From a virus, in IMG/VR virus record IMGVR_UViG_3300017776_000151, positions 1 to 26,505 of that record: a DNA stretch of 26,505 bases; one strand, given 5' to 3'. Under the pieces are notes generated by a model. The model saw only the letters and a program-made list of their open reading frames with translations. It had not been told where the DNA came from and ran no database searches. Both the position numbers and the translations under genes were made by a program. Positions 13,713-24,100 of the stretch are shown here, one piece after another (within the stretch, counting starts at the first letter, position 1; every line of letters begins with the position of its first letter).

Positions 13713-13876
13713 GCGGTAAACAAGCTAAAAAATTAAGGAAAGCTTTACAAGCTGACAATGAAGTTTCGAAAAGAAATTATAAAAGGCTTAAAAAGAAATA
13801 TTTAGAGGTTTCTGGACCTAATAAATCTGACTTTATTAAAGGAGTGCAAGACTTATTTAATCCTACTGACCCCTAA
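13709..13876 (+). CDS. Tiny basic protein, unknown function
   Basis: An open frame of 55 codons: ATG 13709-13711 overlaps the TGA of the acetyltransferase (ATGA) and TAA lies at 13874-13876. The protein begins MSGKQAKKLRKALQ and continues KRNYKRLKKKYLEV, so it is strongly basic and helical at first, ending in a short acidic/aromatic tail (KSDFIKGVQDLFNPTDP). It runs 14 nt into the convergent gene at 13863-14165. The ATGA coupling and the low chance of an unbroken lysine-rich frame support it as a gene. Function is not recognised. Confidence 0.6.
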   Translation: MSGKQAKKLRKALQADNEVSKRNYKRLKKKYLEVSGPNKSDFIKGVQDLFNPTDP

Positions 13877-14165
13877 GCCTTTCATTCTCTTCTCTCAAGA
13901 ATTTAATCTCAACCTTCAATTCTGTGACTTGAACAGTTAACTCACTTACTTGGACCCTCATAGCTTCTTTTTCGTGTGAGGAGCTAACAAGCAAGGACTC
14001 TAACTTACTCACTCTATCAATTAGGTTACTAAGCAGAACCCCCTCTGTTTGGTAATCTAATTTTTTTATTTGCTGTTCGGCACTTAGTCTGTGACTCATG
14101 TATTTCCATAAAGCTCCCCCGAATAATGCTGATGCTACGGATGAGATAATTGTCCAATGATCCAT
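13863..14165 (-). CDS. Membrane-anchored coiled-coil protein (spanin- or holin-region candidate)
   Basis: A 100-aa protein with one N-terminal membrane segment (about residues 5-24, IISSVASALFGGALWKYM) and then a long coiled coil from about residue 55 to the end (VSELTVQVTELKVEIKFLREENERLRGQ). This layout, a short cytoplasmic end, one TM and an extended coiled coil, suits an inner-membrane spanin (Rz-like), which would reach across the periplasm to an outer-membrane lipoprotein such as the one at 15919-16170. Usual Rz proteins are about 100-170 aa. It is transcribed leftward from the divergent promoter region and meets the end of the rightward operon. Alternatives are a holin-associated or virion protein. 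Confidence 0.6.
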   Translation of the reverse strand: MDHWTIISSVASALFGGALWKYMSHRLSAEQQIKKLDYQTEGVLLSNLIDRVSKLESLLVSSSHEKEAMRVQVSELTVQVTELKVEIKFLREENERLRGQ

Positions 14166-14231
14166 AAGTTTAATTACACATTATTTTTAAAAATATTAAA
14201 AATAATATTATTTAGGTGTAATTAAAATCAA
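14166..14231. promoter_or_regulatory. Divergent promoter/operator region
   Basis: A 66-bp, almost purely A/T region between the starts of two divergent genes. Both genes have GTGTAATTAAA directly before their ATG: 14216-14226 on the plus strand (9 nt from GTGTAAT to ATG at 14232) and 14179-14169 on the minus strand (7 nt to ATG at 14165). If TGTAAT acts as a -10 box, both transcripts would have almost no leader. No clear -35 or Shine-Dalgarno sequence is seen on either strand. Confidence 0.6.
14169..14226. repeat. Nested inverted repeats in the divergent promoter
   Basis: The outer repeat is an exact 11-bp pair, TTTAATTACAC (14169-14179) and GTGTAATTAAA (14216-14226), 36 nt apart. Inside it lies an exact 10-bp pair, ATTATTTTTA (14180-14189) and TAAAAATAAT (14197-14206), with a 7-nt spacer. 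The inner pair is not centred on the outer one, so these look like two separate elements: shared promoter boxes and a possible operator. Confidence 0.8.
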
Positions 14232-14981
14232 ATGGGGGAAACAGATAAAAATCTTGAAGAAGCCGAGGCTTTCGCTTTAAAATACTGTAACCCAGATGAT
14301 AGCGAGGTCATCTCTGATCTTGACAGGTATGCGCGAGAGACGGCTTGGACGTTACTGCAAAGAGTTAAGCATTTAGATGATCAAAAGTGTGTTTGTGAGG
14401 AGTGCGGGATTGAGATAGTAGAGGAGATAGAAGAAGAAGTGGAACCCTCCCCTGAAGAGCAGGAAGAAAACCCAGAAGTCAAAGGTGAATCTTCAGATGA
14501 TTCTAACCTGCAAAAACTTGTAGAGACAGATAAAAATAATAAGAGGCTAACAAAAAAATCAAAAAAGGTTGCAGTAGGGGCTGGACTTATAGCTGCTACG
14601 ACTCAGAAAGTAGCAGCGATAGGAACTGCTGGAGTAATGACAATTGCAAGCGGAACCTATTTTCAAGCCAAAGCAGCGAAAACGGAAGGTATAGAGATAG
14701 CTGTTGTTACAGAGCAAGAATATGGAGCATTCTCCAAATTCAATAGGTTTACTGAGTCACTCTTAGGCATTTCAACCTTCGAAGGCGTTAGAGAGTACGC
14801 TGAAAAAGGCTATGGTGACATTAAAGGGTCTAATCCCTCTTCTGAGGAGAACGAAGAAAAGCAGGAGCTTTCTGAAGAAGAGAGGGCGAAGAGAGACAGA
14901 GAATTACTTAAAGTAAGGGAGGATCTTAAAATTAATTCCAATGAACCTCCTACTAATCCCCCAAAACTATCTGATTATTAA
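14232..14981 (+). CDS. Acidic protein with an internal hydrophobic segment, unknown function
   Basis: A 249-aa protein, first in a rightward three-gene operon. The N-terminal part is acidic and helical and contains CVCEEC (two closely spaced Cys pairs, a possible metal site). It is followed by a Glu-rich stretch (IVEEIEEEVEPSPEEQEEN), a basic Lys-rich strip (NKRLTKKSKK), and a long Ala/Gly/Val-rich segment (about residues 113-143, VAVGAGLIAATTQKVAAIG and on) that could cross or insert into a membrane. The C-terminal third is polar and highly charged (SEEERAKRDRELLKVREDL). I do not recognise the family; a minor virion protein or membrane-active lysis factor are both possible. It has no Shine-Dalgarno sequence and starts just after a GTGTAAT box. 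Confidence 0.65.
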   Translation: MGETDKNLEEAEAFALKYCNPDDSEVISDLDRYARETAWTLLQRVKHLDDQKCVCEECGIEIVEEIEEEVEPSPEEQEENPEVKGESSDDSNLQKLVETDKNNKRLTKKSKKVAVGAGLIAATTQKVAAIGTAGVMTIASGTYFQAKAAKTEGIEIAVVTEQEYGAFSKFNRFTESLLGISTFEGVREYAEKGYGDIKGSNPSSEENEEKQELSEEERAKRDRELLKVREDLKINSNEPPTNPPKLSDY

Positions 14982-14983
14982 TT

Positions 14984-15178
14984 ATGGAAGAAATATTCGA
15001 CAAAATTTTAGCGCCTTATATGTCCTCGCTGCCTGAATTTGTAATCGCGGTAATGGGTATAGTTGGGACACTTGCGTTTTTCGCGCCAGAAGATAGTAAG
15101 TTAAATAGATTGCTTAACAAAATCACTGGAAGATTGTCGAAATTTAAAGACTACTTACTTAAAAAACTTAAAAAATGA
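14984..15178 (+). CDS. Small one-TM protein with basic tail, holin candidate
   Basis: A 64-aa protein with a single hydrophobic segment (about residues 16-34, LPEFVIAVMGIVGTLAFFA) and a strongly basic C-terminus (SKFKDYLLKKLKK). Size, one TM and positive tail fit small phage holins of the one-TM class, which make holes in the inner membrane at lysis. No endolysin gene is seen in the window to back this up. It starts 2 nt after the previous stop and overlaps the next gene by ATGA (15175-15178), so it is translated as part of the operon. Any other small membrane protein is an alternative. Confidence 0.55.
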   Translation: MEEIFDKILAPYMSSLPEFVIAVMGIVGTLAFFAPEDSKLNRLLNKITGRLSKFKDYLLKKLKK

Positions 15179-15918
15179 AAAAATTAACACTTCTACTATT
15201 GTCACTATTAGCTTTGCCCTATGTTTGCAAAGCGGCTATCGTTACTTTTACAGGCGGGACGGCAAATTTAGAATCGGGTAGCACCATTATCACAACTACA
15301 ACTTCTAAAAATTATGGAGTCATTAGCTATCAAGAGCAGTCTGTTATTCTTGAATATGTTTCGCCCACCGAAGATTGGAGTTTTCAAACCGTAGGTGATT
15401 ATTATGAGGTAGGGAATGATGTTATTCATGGTCATTGGAATGCGATTTCTACTATAGAAATCTCACTTCAAAATAACACCCCTTTTGATTTGCAGTATTT
15501 TCAAATCACTTCGAATACTTCTGTTGGTGGGCAACCAGCTACAAATGAAGAAAATATCGGAATTCAAGGCCACTTAAATGGCTCCTCTGTTACGGAGATA
15601 TACGCTTTACCCAGCGTAGATTGGGGTGCAGCAAGCACTAGAGATGTTTTCCTACCCAGCTCTTTTAATAACGTCGATAAAGTAGTTATCTTCGATAGAG
15701 GTGTATCAGGTAATCACACTGGAAATTCAAGTTGTCCTGAGTGTGGTAATTCAGGTTTTTGTTTTGGGATGGATAACTTTGTTTTTGATGAGGCAGTTCC
15801 GCAAAATCTTGTACAAGGAAATGCGACCCCATTAACAGCTATACCAGAGGCTAGTGTAGCTTTACTTAGTGGATTAAGTATTCTACTACTCCTACAAAGG
15901 AGAAGGTTTTATAGGTAG
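15175..15918 (+). CDS. Secreted protein with PEP-CTERM-like sorting signal
   Basis: A 247-aa exported protein. The N-terminus is a typical signal peptide (MKKLTLLLLSLLALPYVCKA, cleavage likely after Ala20 or Ala21). The C-terminal 25 residues have the three parts of a PEP-CTERM signal: IPEAS (residues 223-227, Ala in place of the second Pro), a hydrophobic stretch (VALLSGLSILLLLQ) and RRRFYR. In bacteria such proteins are handled by an exosortase (EpsH/XrtA). The middle is beta-rich, with CPECGNSGFC (four clustered Cys/Gly residues) and GMDNFVFDEA, a kind of ending often seen before PEP-CTERM tails. It ends flush against the convergent operon (TAG at 15916-15918). Carriage by a phage is unusual. 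It could change the host surface or be an acquired host gene; I cannot tell which. Confidence 0.75.
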   Translation: MKKLTLLLLSLLALPYVCKAAIVTFTGGTANLESGSTIITTTTSKNYGVISYQEQSVILEYVSPTEDWSFQTVGDYYEVGNDVIHGHWNAISTIEISLQNNTPFDLQYFQITSNTSVGGQPATNEENIGIQGHLNGSSVTEIYALPSVDWGAASTRDVFLPSSFNNVDKVVIFDRGVSGNHTGNSSCPECGNSGFCFGMDNFVFDEAVPQNLVQGNATPLTAIPEASVALLSGLSILLLLQRRRFYR

Positions 15919-16170
15919 TTACTTGTTGTAAACTTCGCGCTCTAACTTCCTATAACGAGCATCTGAATGCCAAACTTCGTTAGTTTGAGGAGTGTAAACT
16001 CCTTCTTCAGTCTGAATCGGCTGACCCGCCTTGAGCTTCAAGGAAGACGGTTGATATATGTTTAAACTGGTTGTTTTCGGCACGGAGCTGCCCCCGCAAG
16101 AAGTCAGCGCGATCACTGGACTCATTGTCGCCAATAGCGCGTAGCTTTTCAATTTCTTCGATAAGTTCAT
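15919..16170 (-). CDS. Lipoprotein, candidate outer-membrane spanin (Rz1-like)
   Basis: The open frame extends to 16212, but the ATG at 16168-16170 gives a normal lipoprotein signal: MNLSKKLKSYALLATMSPVI followed by the lipobox ALTSCGG, with the lipidated Cys at about residue 25. The mature part is about 60 aa, polar and with several prolines, ending in a charged helix (YRKLEREVYNK). Small lipoproteins overlapping another gene in a different frame are the hallmark of Rz1-type o-spanins, which join an inner-membrane partner to disrupt the outer membrane. Here 164 nt overlap the gene at 16007-16267. The upstream start (16212) would put the signal peptide 14 residues in and is less likely. Its stop abuts the stop of the PEP-CTERM gene. 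Confidence 0.65.
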   Translation of the reverse strand: MNLSKKLKSYALLATMSPVIALTSCGGSSVPKTTSLNIYQPSSLKLKAGQPIQTEEGVYTPQTNEVWHSDARYRKLEREVYNK

Positions 16171-16267
16171 TTTTTCTTTTGTTGTGTTCTCTTGTAATCT
16201 GTGAGAATGCAAGTTTATTTTTTAGTTTTAAATATAACCTAAGACTCTCAATTAAACTTTTGATCAT
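16007..16267 (-). CDS. Charged helical protein overlapping the lipoprotein gene
   Basis: An 86-aa protein, mostly charged alpha helix: IKSLIESLRLYLKLKNKLAF, then REHNKRKNELIEEIEKLRAIG and DRADFLRGQLRAENNQFK. It sits upstream of and overlapping the Rz1-like lipoprotein gene, in the position an Rz (i-spanin) gene would have. It lacks an N-terminal membrane segment, so it is not a standard i-spanin; the membrane-anchored coiled-coil protein at 13863-14165 is a better candidate. It starts 12 nt after the preceding small gene's stop, and ends at TGA 16007-16009. Family not recognised. Both overlapping frames look real because each has a coherent protein character. Confidence 0.6.
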   Translation of the reverse strand: MIKSLIESLRLYLKLKNKLAFSQITREHNKRKNELIEEIEKLRAIGDNESSDRADFLRGQLRAENNQFKHISTVFLEAQGGSADSD

Positions 16268-16279
16268 TATTTTGTGTTA

Positions 16280-16423
16280 TCAAATTTTTTTACCAGTAAG
16301 TGTTTTTACTGATCCAGAGATTCGTTCGGCGCAATTTTTTGCATCTTCCAACTTTAAGTAGGAGTGATGATAATTATTTTTTTTATCATACACTCTGTAT
16401 TTTACTAATTCGGTTTCGTTCAT
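16280..16423 (-). CDS. 47-residue protein, unknown function
   Basis: ATG at 16421-16423 (minus strand) overlaps the TGA of the upstream gene by the ATGA arrangement (16420-16423), and the stop is at 16280-16282. The protein starts MNETELVKYRVYDKKNNYHH and ends SGSVKTLTGKKI, with one Cys. The coupled start and its tight fit between two operon genes support it. It fills what would otherwise be a 150-nt gap. No family is recognised. Confidence 0.55.
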   Translation of the reverse strand: MNETELVKYRVYDKKNNYHHSYLKLEDAKNCAERISGSVKTLTGKKI

Positions 16424-17112
16424 GGTTTAAAAAGTAAAGAGACTCTTCCAACAAAATCTTCATCATTAGAGATGAGAGTATTGATTACTACAGAATCCCT
16501 TAGAAATTCTACATCTTTTATGTCCAATAGGTATTTTTTCTTGTCAATTAAGACGGATGTTACGGTGGTATCTTTCTTAAATACAAACCCATTGTATTCT
16601 GCCGTTTTACCAACTAAGTGATTGGCTATTTCATTTGAAGCTACTACTTTTAATTGTCCTATCATTTTATCGGAGTTATACCAGAGGACGGTTTGGTCCT
16701 CATCACTTAATATTATAGCTCTTTTATCGTATTTATCAATCCATCTTTTGTAAATATCCGTTTTAAATGACCTCCTTATTTCTGATTTGAAATATTTTGG
16801 ACTGTTGATATGATCAAGAATTTCATGGAAACCTTTAATCATCTTGGTAAATTTTGACCCACCCATACCAAATAAGAATGCTACATGATTAAATCTTTCC
16901 TCCTCATTAATGAATACATAGCCAATTTTAGATTCTTCTGATGCTAGGTAGACATCACAACCCAATGAAAACATGTCAAAGTATTCTCTAATAAATCTTT
17001 TTTGCATATTATTAGACCCAACTTGCATTTTCCTATACGGCTTTGATTTCCTACAAAAAATATAAAAGTCCTCCCAAACCTCTTCTTTATCTTTAATTTG
17101 TGTAATTTTCAT
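16420..17112 (-). CDS. Unknown protein, weakly GNAT-like
   Basis: A 230-aa protein that heads the leftward operon. The N-terminal 130 residues show a pattern that could be a divergent GNAT fold: a helix VWEDFYIFCRKS, strand SKIGYVFINEEE and VAFLFGMGGSKFTKMIKGFHEI, which has the place of motif A with a Gly-rich turn, then YKRWIDKYDKRAII near where motif B would be. The C-terminal 100 residues (HLVGKTAEYNGFVFKKDTTV and on) form a separate beta-rich part that I do not recognise. GNAT-like proteins are known among phage virion and accessory proteins, but no catalytic residue is clear. The starting ATG is 41 bp from the divergent tail gene. It is coupled to the downstream 47-aa gene by ATGA. Confidence 0.5.
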   Translation of the reverse strand: MKITQIKDKEEVWEDFYIFCRKSKPYRKMQVGSNNMQKRFIREYFDMFSLGCDVYLASEESKIGYVFINEEERFNHVAFLFGMGGSKFTKMIKGFHEILDHINSPKYFKSEIRRSFKTDIYKRWIDKYDKRAIILSDEDQTVLWYNSDKMIGQLKVVASNEIANHLVGKTAEYNGFVFKKDTTVTSVLIDKKKYLLDIKDVEFLRDSVVINTLISNDEDFVGRVSLLFKP

Positions 17113-17153
17113 TTATCCCACATATAATAAGGAAAAGAAGTGTAATATCTAAT
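17113..17153. promoter_or_regulatory. Divergent promoter region before the tail-tip operon
   Basis: This 41-bp gap separates the leftward gene at 17112 from the tail gene at 17154. On the plus strand GTGTAAT (17140-17146) is 7 nt before the ATG, exactly as at the divergent region near 14200; a second GTGTAAT lies 40 nt upstream (17100-17106), inside the leftward gene. TATAAT at 17123-17128 is another possible plus-strand -10. On the minus strand TATTAT (17129-17124) lies 11 nt before the leftward ATG. No consensus -35 is seen. Confidence 0.45.
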
Positions 17154-19370
17154 ATGGCGGATGAAGGAAAAAATAAAGCGGCAAAAAGTCTATTAGATTT
17201 GCAGCCTACGGCTATTTTGGAGCTTTTTAAGGTATATCCTGATTATGAAAATGTTCCAGAGAAGTTCTTTACTCTTCATGGAGGATCTAACTTTTCCAAC
17301 AACATTATTTGGCAGGGGTTAGAATATATAGCTACTCCTATTGAAACAGAAGGTTTTGGTGTTTTCGCTGATGGAACCTTGCCAAGACCCAAGATTACAT
17401 TAGCTAACACCCACAAACTCATCAGTGTACTTCTAGATAAATTTGATGACTTTAAAAATGGAGCTGTTTTGAGAAAAAAGGTTTTCCTAAAACATTTAGA
17501 TGACGCTAACTTCGATGGTGGCAACCCTTTTAGCACAGCAGACCCAAATGCTGAAATTTCATCAGAAAAATATTTCTTTGGTCAAAAAAAGATCGAAAAC
17601 AATCATCTTGTTACTTTTGAGCTTAATTCCCCGCTTGATTTAGATAATTTTCAAGTCAACGAAAGGACTATTAGCGCTAAATACTGCCATTGGAAGTATA
17701 GAGGTTTTGGTTGCCGTTATTCTGGACCACCTGTAGAAAGAGACAGTGGCGATCCTTTTGAAGATGAGAATGAGGATACTGTCCAGCCAAATGCAACTGA
17801 TGAATTTGAGTCTGAGACTGAGGAGTATAGACCTAACAAGCAGTATGTTAAAAGAGATATTGTAAAAATAAATAATCCAAAAATTATTCTTGGAAGAAGT
17901 GATGATGGCACTCCAATATTTCACACCGCTTACTATGTTTGTGTCAAAGACCACGGCTCTGATAGCTCAACCGATGACTCGCATCACCCTGATATCGATG
18001 GGACTTATTGGCAAAAAGATGGATGCGCTAAACAATTAGTTTCCTGCCAAAAAAGATTCGCCAATGGAAGCTCCTTCTTTAAAAGATTTTATTATGGAGA
18101 TTTAGGAGGTTCGCACTTTAAAGTGCTACAAAATAAAGAGTTCAACCCACTATCTTTCATGACTAAAGATAGTACTTTAACTGATGTTTTAGGGTATACT
18201 AATAGTGATAATTTTACGCTATCAATAACTTTTGCAGGAGATTCTTTCAGGGATAGACATTATAATTATCATATGTCACTATTACTAAACAGTTTCCTCG
18301 TAAAGACCAACCAGTCGAACGTTCCCCCTGTAGACGAGACTCTTTTTGCGACAACCAAAGTCGATAGAGACTCAAGAAATATTATTGTGGGGTCTTATGG
18401 TCAGACATTTTCAGATGCAGCTATGGCTGCTAGAGAGAATTTAACAGGTTTTCATGTTTCTGTTCAACTTGAAGAGATAGACCTCGCGGGCCTCATGAAT
18501 GGTGGTGACACGCTACCGAATATTGAGGATACTGAAGCGCATTTAAATTTTACCAATAAAAATAATGATACACCTCCGCCGGGTTGGGTCTTGGCGATGG
18601 AAAACCAAGGTTATACTCTACCCCCCTCTATTCAAAAGTGTATGAGTAGAGCTGTGGTGAGCGATGGGTCTAGATTCCAGACTTTTATCATGAGGCCAGA
18701 TCCAGAAAATCCTAATAAATTTGAGCCTATTGTTAACCCTAATCTGGGTACGAATGGAGAGTTATTAGGGGTTAATTCAAGAGATAATGTAGACCCATCA
18801 CATTTCAGTAAAAATCAACCTACATCAGAAGCTGATTTCTTTAGTTTATTTGGAGATTCAACAACTATCGTATCTGATCAACCCGATGAGGATGAAGATC
18901 AGTTTGGCCCACAGAGCAGGATTTCTTCTTTTCAGGGTTCAATAGCTCAAGTAGTTATTTGGAATAGAAGATTAACAGATAATGAAATTATAGCATTTTC
19001 AGAGGTAAATGTAACATCAGATAAGGTTATAGGTCTCGATCCGGGGTTCACTAAAATCAAACGTGTTCCTTTAGCGTATAGTCAAATCAACAATCAAGAA
19101 GCCACAGAAAGTTTAACTAATGGACTTATAGCTTGGTATGATATGAAAACGGGTTTTTTAGATCCTAGCGAGACTGTGACTGGCATTTTAGATGAGCATA
19201 CAAACAATATTCATTTAACTGGATATGGAGGAAGTGATTTTGAAGTTAAAGAGATTCCTTACACACCAGCCAATATCAGCCCTTTGAAATTTAACGAAGA
19301 TTTAAACTATCACCTGCCTTTTGGGGGATTCCCCGGAACAGATGGTTACGATTACGGAGCAAAAAATTAA
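17154..19370 (+). CDS. Minor tail protein, lambda gpL-like, with sugar-binding-like extensions
   Basis: A 738-aa tail-tip protein. Lambda gpL carries a C-terminal Fe-S cluster bound by four cysteines in the pattern C-x-W/F-x-Y-R/G-G-x-x-C ... C-x-K/R-x-x-x-x-C-x-x-R-F. Here the same signature is YCHWKYRGFGCRYSG (Cys178, Cys187) and GCAKQLVSCQKRF (Cys291, Cys298). About 100 extra residues separate the pairs, including acidic linker and a segment (YVKRDIVKI ... YYVCVKDHG ... GTYWQKDG) like a chitin-binding CBM5/12 module. The C-terminal 440 residues add LamG/concanavalin-type features: FQGSIAQVVIWNRRLTDNEI (near 595-615) and LTNGLIAWYDMKTGF (near 652). It heads the tail-tip operon. Lambda gpL is about 230 aa, so this is a greatly extended version, probably reaching host glycans. 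Confidence 0.78.
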   Translation: MADEGKNKAAKSLLDLQPTAILELFKVYPDYENVPEKFFTLHGGSNFSNNIIWQGLEYIATPIETEGFGVFADGTLPRPKITLANTHKLISVLLDKFDDFKNGAVLRKKVFLKHLDDANFDGGNPFSTADPNAEISSEKYFFGQKKIENNHLVTFELNSPLDLDNFQVNERTISAKYCHWKYRGFGCRYSGPPVERDSGDPFEDENEDTVQPNATDEFESETEEYRPNKQYVKRDIVKINNPKIILGRSDDGTPIFHTAYYVCVKDHGSDSSTDDSHHPDIDGTYWQKDGCAKQLVSCQKRFANGSSFFKRFYYGDLGGSHFKVLQNKEFNPLSFMTKDSTLTDVLGYTNSDNFTLSITFAGDSFRDRHYNYHMSLLLNSFLVKTNQSNVPPVDETLFATTKVDRDSRNIIVGSYGQTFSDAAMAARENLTGFHVSVQLEEIDLAGLMNGGDTLPNIEDTEAHLNFTNKNNDTPPPGWVLAMENQGYTLPPSIQKCMSRAVVSDGSRFQTFIMRPDPENPNKFEPIVNPNLGTNGELLGVNSRDNVDPSHFSKNQPTSEADFFSLFGDSTTIVSDQPDEDEDQFGPQSRISSFQGSIAQVVIWNRRLTDNEIIAFSEVNVTSDKVIGLDPGFTKIKRVPLAYSQINNQEATESLTNGLIAWYDMKTGFLDPSETVTGILDEHTNNIHLTGYGGSDFEVKEIPYTPANISPLKFNEDLNYHLPFGGFPGTDGYDYGAKN

Positions 19371-19376
19371 AGAGTT

Positions 19377-19763
19377 ATGAATGAAAAAGAAGTTTTAAAG
19401 GAGATGATTAATATCTGTGAGTCTAATAATTTCATAGAAATCTGTGGTTTTATAGGTTATCAAAAAAATTCGAACGAATTTCTGATAGAGCAGCAGGAGA
19501 ACATTTCTGAAGACCCAGCTAAATTTTTTTTAATAAGTCCTGTAAATTATCTCTTATTTAAAGACAAAGTTGACAATTTGATTGTTTTCCATAGTCACCC
19601 TTCATCAAATGAGGAACCGTCAGAAATGGATATAAAAATTTCAGATAATTGCTGCGATCCATTTTTAATATATAGTTTAGTTAGTAAAAAAATTCACATT
19701 TATAATCCCAAAAACTCAATAATAGATGTAAGTATACTGGAAAGGTTGAAGGAAGCTATATGA
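19377..19763 (+). CDS. JAMM/MPN metallopeptidase, lambda gpK-like tail protein
   Basis: A 128-aa protein with an intact JAMM zinc-protease motif: Glu21 in the strand EICGFIG and H-x-H-x7-S-x-x-D as HSHPSSNEEPSEMD (His72, His74, Ser82, Asp85). In lambda-like phages the Mov34/MPN domain is the N-terminal half of tail-tip protein gpK, whose C-terminal half is an NlpC/P60 cell-wall hydrolase. Here only the MPN part is present, and no NlpC/P60 domain is seen nearby. It starts 6 nt after the gpL-like gene and overlaps the gpI-like gene by ATGA, keeping the lambda L-K-I-J order. It probably processes or helps assemble the tail tip. Confidence 0.87.
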   Translation: MNEKEVLKEMINICESNNFIEICGFIGYQKNSNEFLIEQQENISEDPAKFFLISPVNYLLFKDKVDNLIVFHSHPSSNEEPSEMDIKISDNCCDPFLIYSLVSKKIHIYNPKNSIIDVSILERLKEAI

Positions 19764-20353
19764 CTAAAATAAGATTACATGGGATATTGAAAGCTGAATA
19801 TGGCGATTGTTTTTATATGGACATTTCTCGACCTAGAGATGTTATCAAGGCTATTGACGCTAACAGGGATGGTTTTAGAAAAAGACTAATAGATTTACAA
19901 AAAGAAGGTATGTATTATGACATACTTGTTAATAAACAAAAAGTTGATAAACAAAATTTTTTACAAAATAAAAAACCAACCCAATTAGATATTGTCCCTT
20001 TAATTACTGGTCATGGACCTGTCGGGATGTTTATAGCTTCTGTAGTTATCTCAATCGCTATTGCTGTTGTTATGTACGCTTTAATGGACCCCGGAACTAT
20101 CGATGGAGGTTCTCAGGCGGTGGGTTCTGGTGGTGAGTCTTTGATATTCCAAGGTGGCGCGGCAAACGTATCTAATCAAGGAGATCCTTTACCCATAGGT
20201 TATGGCAGGTTGATGGTTGGGTCTAATGTGATTCAAAGCACAGTCAGATCTTTACCTCAAACGTTGAAGAGTATAGATTCAATGACGGCTGTTAAATACA
20301 ATGCTGATATTTCTGATGATACTTTTATAAGAGACTCATTTATAAATTCATAA
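19760..20353 (+). CDS. Tail assembly protein, lambda gpI-like
   Basis: A 197-aa protein with the gpI layout: an N-terminal ubiquitin-like part (TKIRLHGILKAEYGDCF ... QLDIVPLITG), a hydrophobic segment at about 91-111 (GMFIASVVISIAIAVVMYAL), then a Gly-rich stretch and DPLPIGYGRLMVGSNVIQST, which is the conserved gpI ending. gpI works with gpJ during tail-tip assembly and is not a major part of the virion in lambda. It has a clear Shine-Dalgarno AAGGA at 19749-19753, 6 nt before the ATG, one of the few in this window. Its stop TAA overlaps the following ATG by 1 nt at 20353. Confidence 0.87.
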   Translation: MTKIRLHGILKAEYGDCFYMDISRPRDVIKAIDANRDGFRKRLIDLQKEGMYYDILVNKQKVDKQNFLQNKKPTQLDIVPLITGHGPVGMFIASVVISIAIAVVMYALMDPGTIDGGSQAVGSGGESLIFQGGAANVSNQGDPLPIGYGRLMVGSNVIQSTVRSLPQTLKSIDSMTAVKYNADISDDTFIRDSFINS

Positions 20354-21114
20354 TGAAACATTTATTAAAGAAAATCAAAACTAGAGGAGCAGGTGGGGGA
20401 AAAGAAGCTAAAGTCACACCAGCTAATCTAACTCCGCACAAGATCGGAGATCATGAATTTGGTTCTTCATTTAGCATAGCCGAGACTATTGATTTGATTT
20501 CTGATGGGCCAATTGAGGGTTTGGTTGATTCAGAAGGTACTCTTCTCCCGCCTTCTGAGATTACAAGAGGTGTCTATTTAAATGATGTTGCTATTGCTGT
20601 TAAATCTGATCAAACGCCCCAAACTAATAATGAGTCAACAGTTTATAGAGTAGATATTACTGAGTTTCAAGAGGTTTATGGAACCCCACTAAATTCAAAA
20701 ACTAAACCGGGTTCTGTTGCTATATCATATGATAGAGGAGCTTTTCACTTAGATCAAACAGTAGGTTTAGGAGTATATCCTTGGCGGGAAGATGCTGGGC
20801 AGATTTGGAGAAATAAAAATGGTGAAAATGATTTAAATGGTACTCTAATCGAAAATAAATGGATTGAAACTAATTATGATGTAGATCGTTATATTAAAGG
20901 CTTTGAATTAATTAATGGAACAGAAGAGATAATAACCTCGCCTCAACAACCTTTGGCGAATGTGAAGGTGTATCCATTTGATAGTGCAAACTTACCTGAG
21001 TACACTTTATCTTATATTCAAACCAATAAAGCCACCATCAGTGGATCTACTCTGATTAATTTTATATCCATAGAACCTCCAGTCCCAAGTTCTTCCAACT
21101 ACGCCTCATACTAA
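20353..21114 (+). CDS. Tail tip protein gpJ, N-terminal part encoded separately
   Basis: A 253-aa protein matching the first part of lambda gpJ, the central tail-tip and host-attachment protein. The diagnostic stretch is AETIDLISDGPIEGLVDSEG (lambda: D-A-I-S-E-G-P-I-E-G) followed by RGVYLNDVAI, where gpJ has its first domain, and a glycine-rich basic N-terminus (KTRGAGGGKEAK). In lambda this region continues in one protein; here it ends at TAA 21112-21114, and the rest follows in a different frame with ATG 21116. The end region is Pro/Ser-rich (PPVPSSSNYASY), consistent with a natural linker. No slippery sequence was seen near the junction, so two separate proteins are more likely than frameshifting. 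Confidence 0.78.
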   Translation: MKHLLKKIKTRGAGGGKEAKVTPANLTPHKIGDHEFGSSFSIAETIDLISDGPIEGLVDSEGTLLPPSEITRGVYLNDVAIAVKSDQTPQTNNESTVYRVDITEFQEVYGTPLNSKTKPGSVAISYDRGAFHLDQTVGLGVYPWREDAGQIWRNKNGENDLNGTLIENKWIETNYDVDRYIKGFELINGTEEIITSPQQPLANVKVYPFDSANLPEYTLSYIQTNKATISGSTLINFISIEPPVPSSSNYASY

Positions 21115-21115
21115 A

Positions 21116-24100
21116 ATGAATAAAAAACCACATATTGGAGGAGCAGGTGATAGAGTCTATTGGATAGAGAGTCTACAAGGGTCAAATAAAGTCATCAAGT
21201 CAAAGGCTTTAAAAAATGCTGGAGATGCTTTCTTTGAAAAAAAAGCAATTGAACGGCTCGACACTGTTCGCGAAAAAGAACTCGACCTGTTCGAAGCCGG
21301 GAGGGTCTCGCGAGCGGGTAATCAAACAAACGATTTGCTTGATTCTGCCCAGAAAGAGCTATGGTTGAATGCTAATAGGGGGAATGGATTTACTCAACCT
21401 ATTATAGATATATTAAGGGAAATGCGAAATGGATCGTGGAAGGATGCAATTAGCAATACTGGCGCACGGAAGCCAACCCGAGAGTATTATAATATGATGA
21501 AAAATATTCTCGATAGAGCCATGCCGGGTTATTCCGATTTACATCTAAAAACTCCAGAAGAAATTGGTGAAATATTACTCCTTCAATTTGCCCGTTCGTC
21601 TCAACATATTGGTTTCGGGCAGATTATAATGTATATCCCGGATAGAGATTTACTGGACAGCCTTCCTAATAAAAAGACTTATGACCCAGCAAACAACGTT
21701 TTTCTTACCAACATTGAAAATTTAAGAATCGAACTTGTTAACGATGATAATACCCCAGTTAGATTGCAAGATATCTCAGGAGTATCAGTCGCTAATCTTT
21801 TAGTTCCACAGCTTGGAGGAGGAATCCCGAGCGCCGGGTACGAATCGTCTGGCGGCGAGACCGGCAGTCCGGGGCGGTGGAGTTTGACTGGTGAGGTATT
21901 CGGAGCTTTATTTATAGGAATCCCAGCAGAGAGTGCCGCCTTCAAACTCAAAGGTTGGCATTCAATAGAACTCACTAACTATCTCAGAGTCGAGAATCCG
22001 GGGGGTAACGATATAAGTATTTATGATGAGGACATAAATGGAGTGAAAAAAACTTTTGTAAAGTCAGCTAAAAAAACTATTCAGTTTGATCAACATTTTG
22101 CTAATGTAGCTTCCTCAATTAGCGGGGTTATAGTTACTGATAAGATTCATGATAACAATCTAAAATATAATTACGCAAACGTTCTTTTAGAGCAGAAATT
22201 AGGGGAAGAAACACAAACGCCTTTAAATTATTTTAATAGAGTTTCTATTGATAAAAATAAAAATAGAGACCTTTTTGGGCCATACAGAATAAATAAGCAA
22301 GTACAAAGGATAAAAAGAAACACTGCGCTTAATAAACAAAATTTTGATAAAGCTAATGTTGATTACTATGGCCCTGATTTAGGGAGAAAGCTCCATTCCA
22401 TACTCCCCAGAGGAGAAGGAAGTCTTGATGATCAACGTTTAACAGGTGGAAACACAACAGCCCCTTTTCAAGCTTGGGCTAAAGAAAATTCGGCTTATGA
22501 AGAAGGGGAAGATGCGGTCCCTATTACTCATACCATTCATAATCCTAACGTCGAAGAAGTATCAATTAGTCTTCAAATTGGCTCTCTTTTTGATACCGTA
22601 GAAAAAGATTTTGCGACCAATACTGAGAATAATCACGAATATAACAAGAATATCCTTAAAGCTGGAGATAAAATACCAGCTATTCTTAATGTTAGGGTCG
22701 AAATTGGTCTAATAGATCAAGAAGGAGTTCAAGAGGTATATAGCTCTAGGGATTATAGAATAACAGCCTTAATACAAACAGCTACTATATTAGATATAGG
22801 GAATCCTGATCAATTAAACGATAAAGATGCTTACGATCACATAAAAGTACATTTTGACTATTTTCAGAGTCTTACCCTAGATGAGCAGAGATCGGGGGTT
22901 TCGGAGAATCAATCGGAAAAAACTCCAGATGTAAATGTGCCTTTTAAGCTGCCTCCAGTCAGGACTTTTTTTAAAAATAACGAAGGGGCAAGTCTTCAAA
23001 AAAGATTTGTTAGAGTAACAAAGTTATCTACAGAGACGTTTTCTGTTTTAATTGACAAGCAGGTAAGACTAGCTAAGGTGACAGAAATCATTCCAACTTA
23101 CTTTTCATATCCATACTCAGCTATTTATGGGATGAAGGTAGATACTAAAAGCTTTAATAAACTCCCTCAAAGAACTTTTGATGCTAGATTAAAAAAAATA
23201 CAAATACCAAGCAACTATTATCCGATGAGGGTAGATGATTCTGGGAAAGATAAAAGGTATTATATTCGAAAAAATGAGTTTGATCTTTTATCTGAAAATC
23301 AAAAAGAGGTTTATTCTGGAGACTGGGATGGATCTTTCAAGATTGGTTGGACAGACAACCCGGCTTGGATTTTGTACGATCTTTTGACAAGCCCAAGATA
23401 TGGCTTGGGCCAGCAAGTTTCTGAGGCGGAAATCAATAAGTGGGAGCTTTATAAAATAGGTAGATTCTGTGATGCAGTAGATGACAATGGTGTTTTTGTG
23501 GGTGTTCCAGATGGTCGCGGGGGATTAGAGCCTAGATACTCTTGTAATATCCTGTTTAATTCAAAAGAAAAAATCTTTGATGCTATTCAGTTAATATCAG
23601 ACTTATTTAGAGGGAAAACTTTCTTTAGGAATTCTGAGGTATCTTTCTTATCTCAAACAATTAAATCTCCAATCGCTACATTTTCCAATACAAATGTTAA
23701 AGATGGAGTTTTTAACTATTCTAATTTTAGAAGAGATCAACAGTTTAATACTGTTGAGGTAGCTTATAAGGATAGGTTTGAAAACTTTGCTCCAAAAATT
23801 GAAACTGTTGAAGACCATACTGATATTTCTAGTAGAGGCGTATTCAAGACGACTATTGAAGCCGTAGGCGTAACTTCTAGAGCAATGGCCCGTAGGATTG
23901 GGCAACACCTCATATTTAAAACTGTAAATGAAAATCAAAGAATAGCTTTTACAGCGGGTCTAGAATCTTTATTGTGTCACCCCGGAGATTTAATAATTGT
24001 AGATGATGATTTAAAAAGCAATACATCAAATTTTGGCAAAGTCATGAGTGTCGATGTTAATAACCAATATATTAGGTTAAGTGGGCCATTTGATTCTTCC

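Follow-up and report, generated by a model that had tools for sequence, protein, structure and literature searches.

Phages of three different genome layouts carry in their lysis locus a mobile cassette in which one gene, here called C, encodes an exported protein with a C-terminal tail built like the sorting signals of exosortase substrates. Among all the proteins found at this position the tail is swapped yet never lost, which suggests that these phages rely on the surface-sorting enzyme of the host late in infection. The cassette was studied starting from a 26,505-bp virus record of IMG/VR (the window, i.e., the whole stretch of DNA that was analysed), in which genes for DNA polymerase, exonuclease and ATPase and the lambda-like tail genes L, I and J are also present. 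The features of the region are collected in Table 1.

Table 1. Features of the cassette region (positions in the window; roles are predicted).
Feature	Positions	Strand	Description
H	13863–14165	-	100 aa; N-terminal hydrophobic segment and coiled coil; divergent from A; i-spanin/holin-like candidate
A	14232–14981	+	249 aa, function unassigned; acidic linker, Ala/Gly-rich hydrophobic stretch; first cassette gene
B	14984–15178	+	64 aa; one hydrophobic segment, basic C-terminus; putatively holin-like
C (C1 family)	15175–15918	+	Exported protein; predicted CBM-like beta-sandwich body; PE-type sorting tail
C, Sec signal peptide	15175–15234	+	Rule-based; predicted cleavage CKA/A after residue 20
C, sorting tail IPEAS-VALLSGLSILLLL-QRRRFYR	15841–15915	+	P-E, hydrophobic and basic parts kept in the slot; DNA of the segment swapped between alleles
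C tail, P224-E225	15844–15849	+	
C tail, hydrophobic part	15856–15894	+	
C tail, basic end	15898–15915	+	
D	15919–16167	-	82-aa lipoprotein, lipobox-like L-T-S-C; putatively o-spanin-like; abuts C, convergent
E	16007–16267	-	86-aa ORF overlapping D in another frame; weak match only

The open reading frame of C was confirmed, with 247 aa, an ATG start and a TAG stop. Simple rules predict a signal peptide with an A-x-A-like site at its N-terminus (MKKLTLLLLSLLALPYVCKA/AIVTF), and the C-terminus reads I223-P224-E225-A-S, VALLSGLSILLLL, QRRRFYR. The substrates of the PEP-CTERM/exosortase system (EpsH; TIGR02595/TIGR02602) likewise have a signal peptide, a short C-terminal motif, a hydrophobic helix and a basic cluster (Haft et al. 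2006, PMC1569441). The preliminary description had proposed a phage-borne protein with such a signal in a lysis-like neighbourhood, and these three points are borne out: C has 33–36 viral relatives with phage genes on both sides, the signal architecture is under strong selection, and relatives have endolysin genes, together with holin-like and spanin-like ones, next to the cassette. No match to the window protein was obtained in Pfam (E 1), in PHROG or in a sequence search of the solved structures in the PDB, and the INPHARED phages gave none to C1, C2 or A.

The selection on the tail was assessed with the slot set, which comprises every distinct complete protein encoded after gene B in IMG/VR phages of the three layouts (n = 53; 24 of the C1 family and 29 of an unrelated family, C2). 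Leader, P-E, hydrophobic helix and basic end are kept in all 53, so that no homologue without the tail was found. The P-E pair is invariant throughout the set, while the remainder of the tail varies freely (38 distinct tail sequences among the first 50 slot proteins) and the residue following P-E can be A, V, L, I, S, M, F or, rarely, P. A rule-based tail scan over 1,157 stop-to-stop ORFs of the window and six related phages returned eight matches, seven of them C or its homologues, whereas the shuffled-sequence control gave 4 matches in 13,356 ORFs. This comparison, together with the retention of the tail in the slot set, rules out a tail by chance.

Against the PEP-CTERM profiles the proposed signal formally fails, as the scores are below the cut-offs and nearly every member lacks the second Pro of PEP. 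The window protein is reported neither by TIGR02595 nor by PF07589; the best relative reaches 8.9 bits with TIGR02595 (cut-off 16), and the maximum for PF07589 in any of 22 viral records is 15.8 (cut-off 20.7). The near-invariant PEP of TIGR02595 is replaced by PEA in the window, with Pro at position 3 in one of the 50 tails first counted. The other traits of that model are present in the 53 proteins, i.e., the helix and basic cluster at the extreme C-terminus and, by rules, the N-terminal signal peptide. The PEP-CTERM family NF038120 aligns residues 92–244 of C to profile positions 78–214 of 215, that is, through the tail, yet with 26.1 bits (E 6.9e-6) versus a curated cut-off of 80; the match is lost when the tail is removed. 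Several slot members match PEP-CTERM families to the last profile positions in the same way, below cut-off (NF038120, PepA NF033554 and XDP1 NF041927). The C2 protein L118 carries a canonical IPEP, and its match to the exosortase-dependent surface protein XDP1 (E 4e-4) is also below cut-off. Judged from the sequences, the sorting-signal architecture is plainly under strong selection despite these scores. We consider exosortase-type sorting of C likely; what the protein finally does we infer below.

The tails are swapped from one protein to another. Proteins L003 and L006 have bodies 92% identical and tails 29% identical, and for L024 and L026 the figures are 95% and 41%; conversely, L003 and L020 share 60% of the body and 79% of the tail. 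At the DNA level, the identity between L003 and L006 falls from about 90–97% to 45–68% over about 100 bp of the tail and returns to 82–100% in the next gene. The architecture of the tail is kept on either side of each exchange. On these alignments, about 100 bp of tail-coding DNA has been exchanged between proteins with bodies 92–95% identical.

The body can be replaced as well. In 29 of the 53 slot proteins, a C2 protein of 275–278 aa with the same kind of tail takes the place of the C1 body. An hhalign comparison of the C1 and C2 profiles aligns only the last 35 columns, which are the tail (probability 90, E 1.6e-6), and with leader and tail removed there was no alignment and no detectable homology between the bodies. 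Apparent tblastn matches between them (25–26% identity) also vanished after this removal, and the C1 and C2 tails, at most 64% identical in nucleotides, give no support to an exchange of tail DNA directly between the two families. Since bodies are replaced and the tail is kept, the conserved property of the slot would be that its product is exported and tagged rather than one fold. Unrelated bodies with one kind of tail are also typical of the PEP-CTERM substrates (PMC1569441). The slot proteins differ from those substrates in rarely having Pro at the third motif residue, in scoring below the model cut-offs, and in being phage-encoded inside a lysis module with no phage exosortase detected. 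As a separate observation, the N-terminal part (VDGIENPTENPNI) of the C1 protein L031 (L058, 7309–8064) resembles C2 proteins, which suggests a C1/C2 recombinant.

In the cassette of about 2.1 kb, A, B and C lie on the same strand, and D and E are convergent to them. Gene A was found in 65 viral loci, with weak or no family matches, and gene B in 61. In all 55 distinct B+C pairs, the stop of B and the start of C overlap as ATGA, and no RNA structure was detected at this junction (z +1.1). The D proteins are 52–94% identical across relatives by alignment, with a conserved VWHSDARYR end and no PHROG match, and E is conserved together with D in nearly all relatives. H matches PHROG 2658 'hol-like' (E 1.3e-7), and homologues 70–100% identical lie upstream of A in relatives of the window type. 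No endolysin gene was found in the window itself. In one related phage (G015), the cassette lies next to genes for a lysozyme (PHROG E 1.9e-36) and for an amidase (1.4e-23), and in another (G008) holin-like and amidase-like ORFs were read from the sequence beside it; hence the term lysis locus. The roles of B, D, E and H are putative, and for B, D and H the assignment to lysis relies mainly on size, motif and position. In lambda-type lysis cassettes (holin, endolysin, Rz/Rz1 spanins) there is also a small transmembrane protein and a lipoprotein gene overlapping another ORF, with endolysin adjacent in our relatives, but the present module also contains an exported payload, whose gene is coupled to the holin-like one.

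The module was found in three layouts: a, that of the window, with lambda-like tail genes; b, in which the gene order is inverted, the DNA polymerase is 50% identical and the structural genes are others; and c (G015), with baseplate-like genes by eye and nothing clear in common with a and b outside the lysis region. The replication genes of types a and b are distantly related, and thus they are different but not wholly unrelated phages. Between a type-a and a type-b contig from one metagenome, the sole similar DNA in the stretches compared is a block of 2,090 bp (86% nucleotide identity) that spans the module. By this comparison, the lysis-locus cassette of about 2.1 kb has moved between different phages.

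The body of C shows a median dN/dS of 0.09, which indicates strong purifying selection. The predicted model of C1 has a mean pLDDT of 66, better in residues 21–60 and 90–170, and is a beta-sandwich; with this confidence, the best structural alignments are to DUF4465/BtuJ (Z 10.7) and CBM4 (Z 10.2). The predicted arrangement, in a model of low confidence, is similar to that of DUF4465/BtuJ and CBM4/CBM29-like modules (Z about 9–10.7 over 126–163 residues), but the identity is 6–13% and there is no sequence match to them. The fold fits a ligand- or glycan-binding surface protein while demonstrating no function, and a glycan-binding role of C1 may be read from fold resemblance only. The C2 model (mean pLDDT 49.8) is not interpretable as a fold, since Foldseek gave nothing under E 0.4 and the best VIA hit (Z 7.3) lay among beta-helix proteins. 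Therefore, that both C1 and C2 bind glycans is a guess.

We think that C may be a phage surface protein made late, which the host exosortase sorts and which modifies the host surface or exopolysaccharide (EPS) for release or self-exclusion, a reading to which we would give an even chance. Judging from its location, C would be made late, coupled to the holin-like B through the observed overlap. Sec would export it and signal peptidase would remove the predicted leader, and the P-E/helix/basic tail would retain the protein in the inner membrane until the host exosortase cuts at P-E. Tail conservation and known exosortase biology suggest that the body might then be passed to the outer surface or the EPS, where the C1 beta-sandwich or the unrelated C2 body could bind or coat glycans. 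At lysis, such a coating may free the progeny from being trapped on cell remains or EPS and keep other phages off. With the architecture kept, swapping would adapt the tail to whichever exosortase the local host has. Cellular substrates of exosortase stabilise contacts between EPS and the surface (PMC12188702). The role proposed for C, a phage protein on the host surface altering adsorption, would be analogous to that of known surface-exclusion proteins. Those, such as T5 Llp and phage-encoded porins, are lipoproteins or porins and, unlike what is proposed for C, they are not exosortase-sorted. More tentatively, and with clearly less confidence, this phage group might have an exosortase-dependent lysis or release step with a modular slot for any surface protein, the tail being exchanged to suit the exosortase of the current host; the sorting enzyme would then be a host-range factor acting after entry.

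The strongest of the other readings, which we hold to be rather unlikely, is that C is a lysis effector: delivered by exosortase, it would loosen the outer envelope or EPS, or saturate the exosortase and starve the EPS-anchoring proteins of the host, as an extra lysis step in EPS-coated hosts. The translational coupling to B and the endolysin, holin-like and spanin-like genes of the relatives agree with it, but neither C1 nor C2 has a hydrolase family match or a convincing enzyme fold, and the position in the lysis block may mean late timing only. A less probable reading takes the tail as a plain, unprocessed inner-membrane anchor with C active in the periplasm, for instance by exclusion at the stage of DNA entry. 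Any helix with basic residues would indeed anchor, and the motif is PE-X with scores below the PEP-CTERM cut-offs. However, an anchor alone needs no P-E, which is the part that stays invariant while helix and end vary, and the below-cut-off family matches extend to the last profile positions.

Least probable of all, and in our opinion very improbable, is that C is cargo for lysogenic conversion, as a gene for a host surface protein whose carriage benefits the host (biofilm, EPS). In its favour, a Planctomycetota MAG encodes a chromosomal protein of 33% identity, with a VPLPPAAW tail, amid other exosortase-type substrates, and the remote origin of C is probably a host PEP-CTERM protein of this sort. 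Against it, no integrase was found in 22 records (partial ones), and C is fixed inside the lysis-locus module in the viral loci examined. The earlier suggestion of a host gene merely carried along does not survive as the main reading, since C is a translationally coupled part of a conserved phage module with a dN/dS of 0.09. A common source of C in Planctomycetota was also discarded, with a relative in only 1 of 294 genomes.

The tail had also been taken as a clue to the host, which it narrows without settling it. A search of 43 viral records, among them contigs of 118, 94 and 80 kb, revealed no exosortase, and thus any processing of the tail would require an enzyme of the host; no genome of a host with a matching exosortase was found. 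In the window and related phages, Shine-Dalgarno motifs upstream of genes are not enriched (31 of 243 upstream stretches versus 28 of 243 control positions), and these upstream regions are A-rich. Bacteria in which such motifs are scarce are mainly Bacteroidota and some Verrucomicrobiota (PMC10783764), while the classical PEP-CTERM systems are distributed among Verrucomicrobia, Planctomycetes, Cyanobacteria and Proteobacteria, in bacteria that have an outer membrane and EPS genes (PMC1569441). The overlap of both distributions points to a host that is probably a Shine-Dalgarno-poor member of the Verrucomicrobiota. The alternative is Bacteroidota with XrtF-type enzymes; XrtF-sized exosortase matches occur in 20 of 60 Flavobacteriaceae genomes. 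One Flavobacteriaceae MAG (ERR2094171_bin.138) contains two phage contigs of different layouts (L035 and L036), both with the cassette. A Flavobacteriaceae host deduced from it is doubtful, given these differing layouts and the lack of an exosortase in the MAG, and the contigs are probably misbinned.

Exosortase sorting is known from cellular genomes, and in the open-access literature searched we found no report of a phage-borne exosortase/PEP-CTERM substrate; new here would be the use by phages, with the PE-X motif and as part of a mobile lysis-locus module. With a conserved mobile module centred on such a substrate, phages would be seen to exploit a surface-sorting enzyme of the host. Moreover, some 40 natural sorting tails kept by selection would be useful for decoding exosortase specificity, and the module would offer a genetic handle on phages of uncultured bacteria.

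Some minor observations can be added. Between the divergent genes H and A (window 14168–14231) there is an inverted pair, TTTAATTACAC ... GTGTAATTAAA, and several relatives also have a TACAC ... GTGTA pair upstream of A; it is possibly a late promoter or a regulator site. Two phages that differ in layout and come from one metagenome (L059, 7784–8458; L061, 10729–11403) encode a 224-aa exported, outer-membrane-barrel-like protein between C and D. Neither copy has a Pfam match, and the L059 copy has none in PHROG or NCBIfam; its presence there fits the theme of surface modification. In type-b phages (L072–L073; G014, 16080–22856), sugar-nucleotide and glycosyltransferase-like genes form a block whose content varies from phage to phage, which is one more hint that surface glycans may be modified. 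Finally, a tail gene at window positions 19377–19763 encodes a JAB (Prok-JAB) peptidase domain, and its product perhaps resembles lambda tail protein K in the N-terminal part of the latter.
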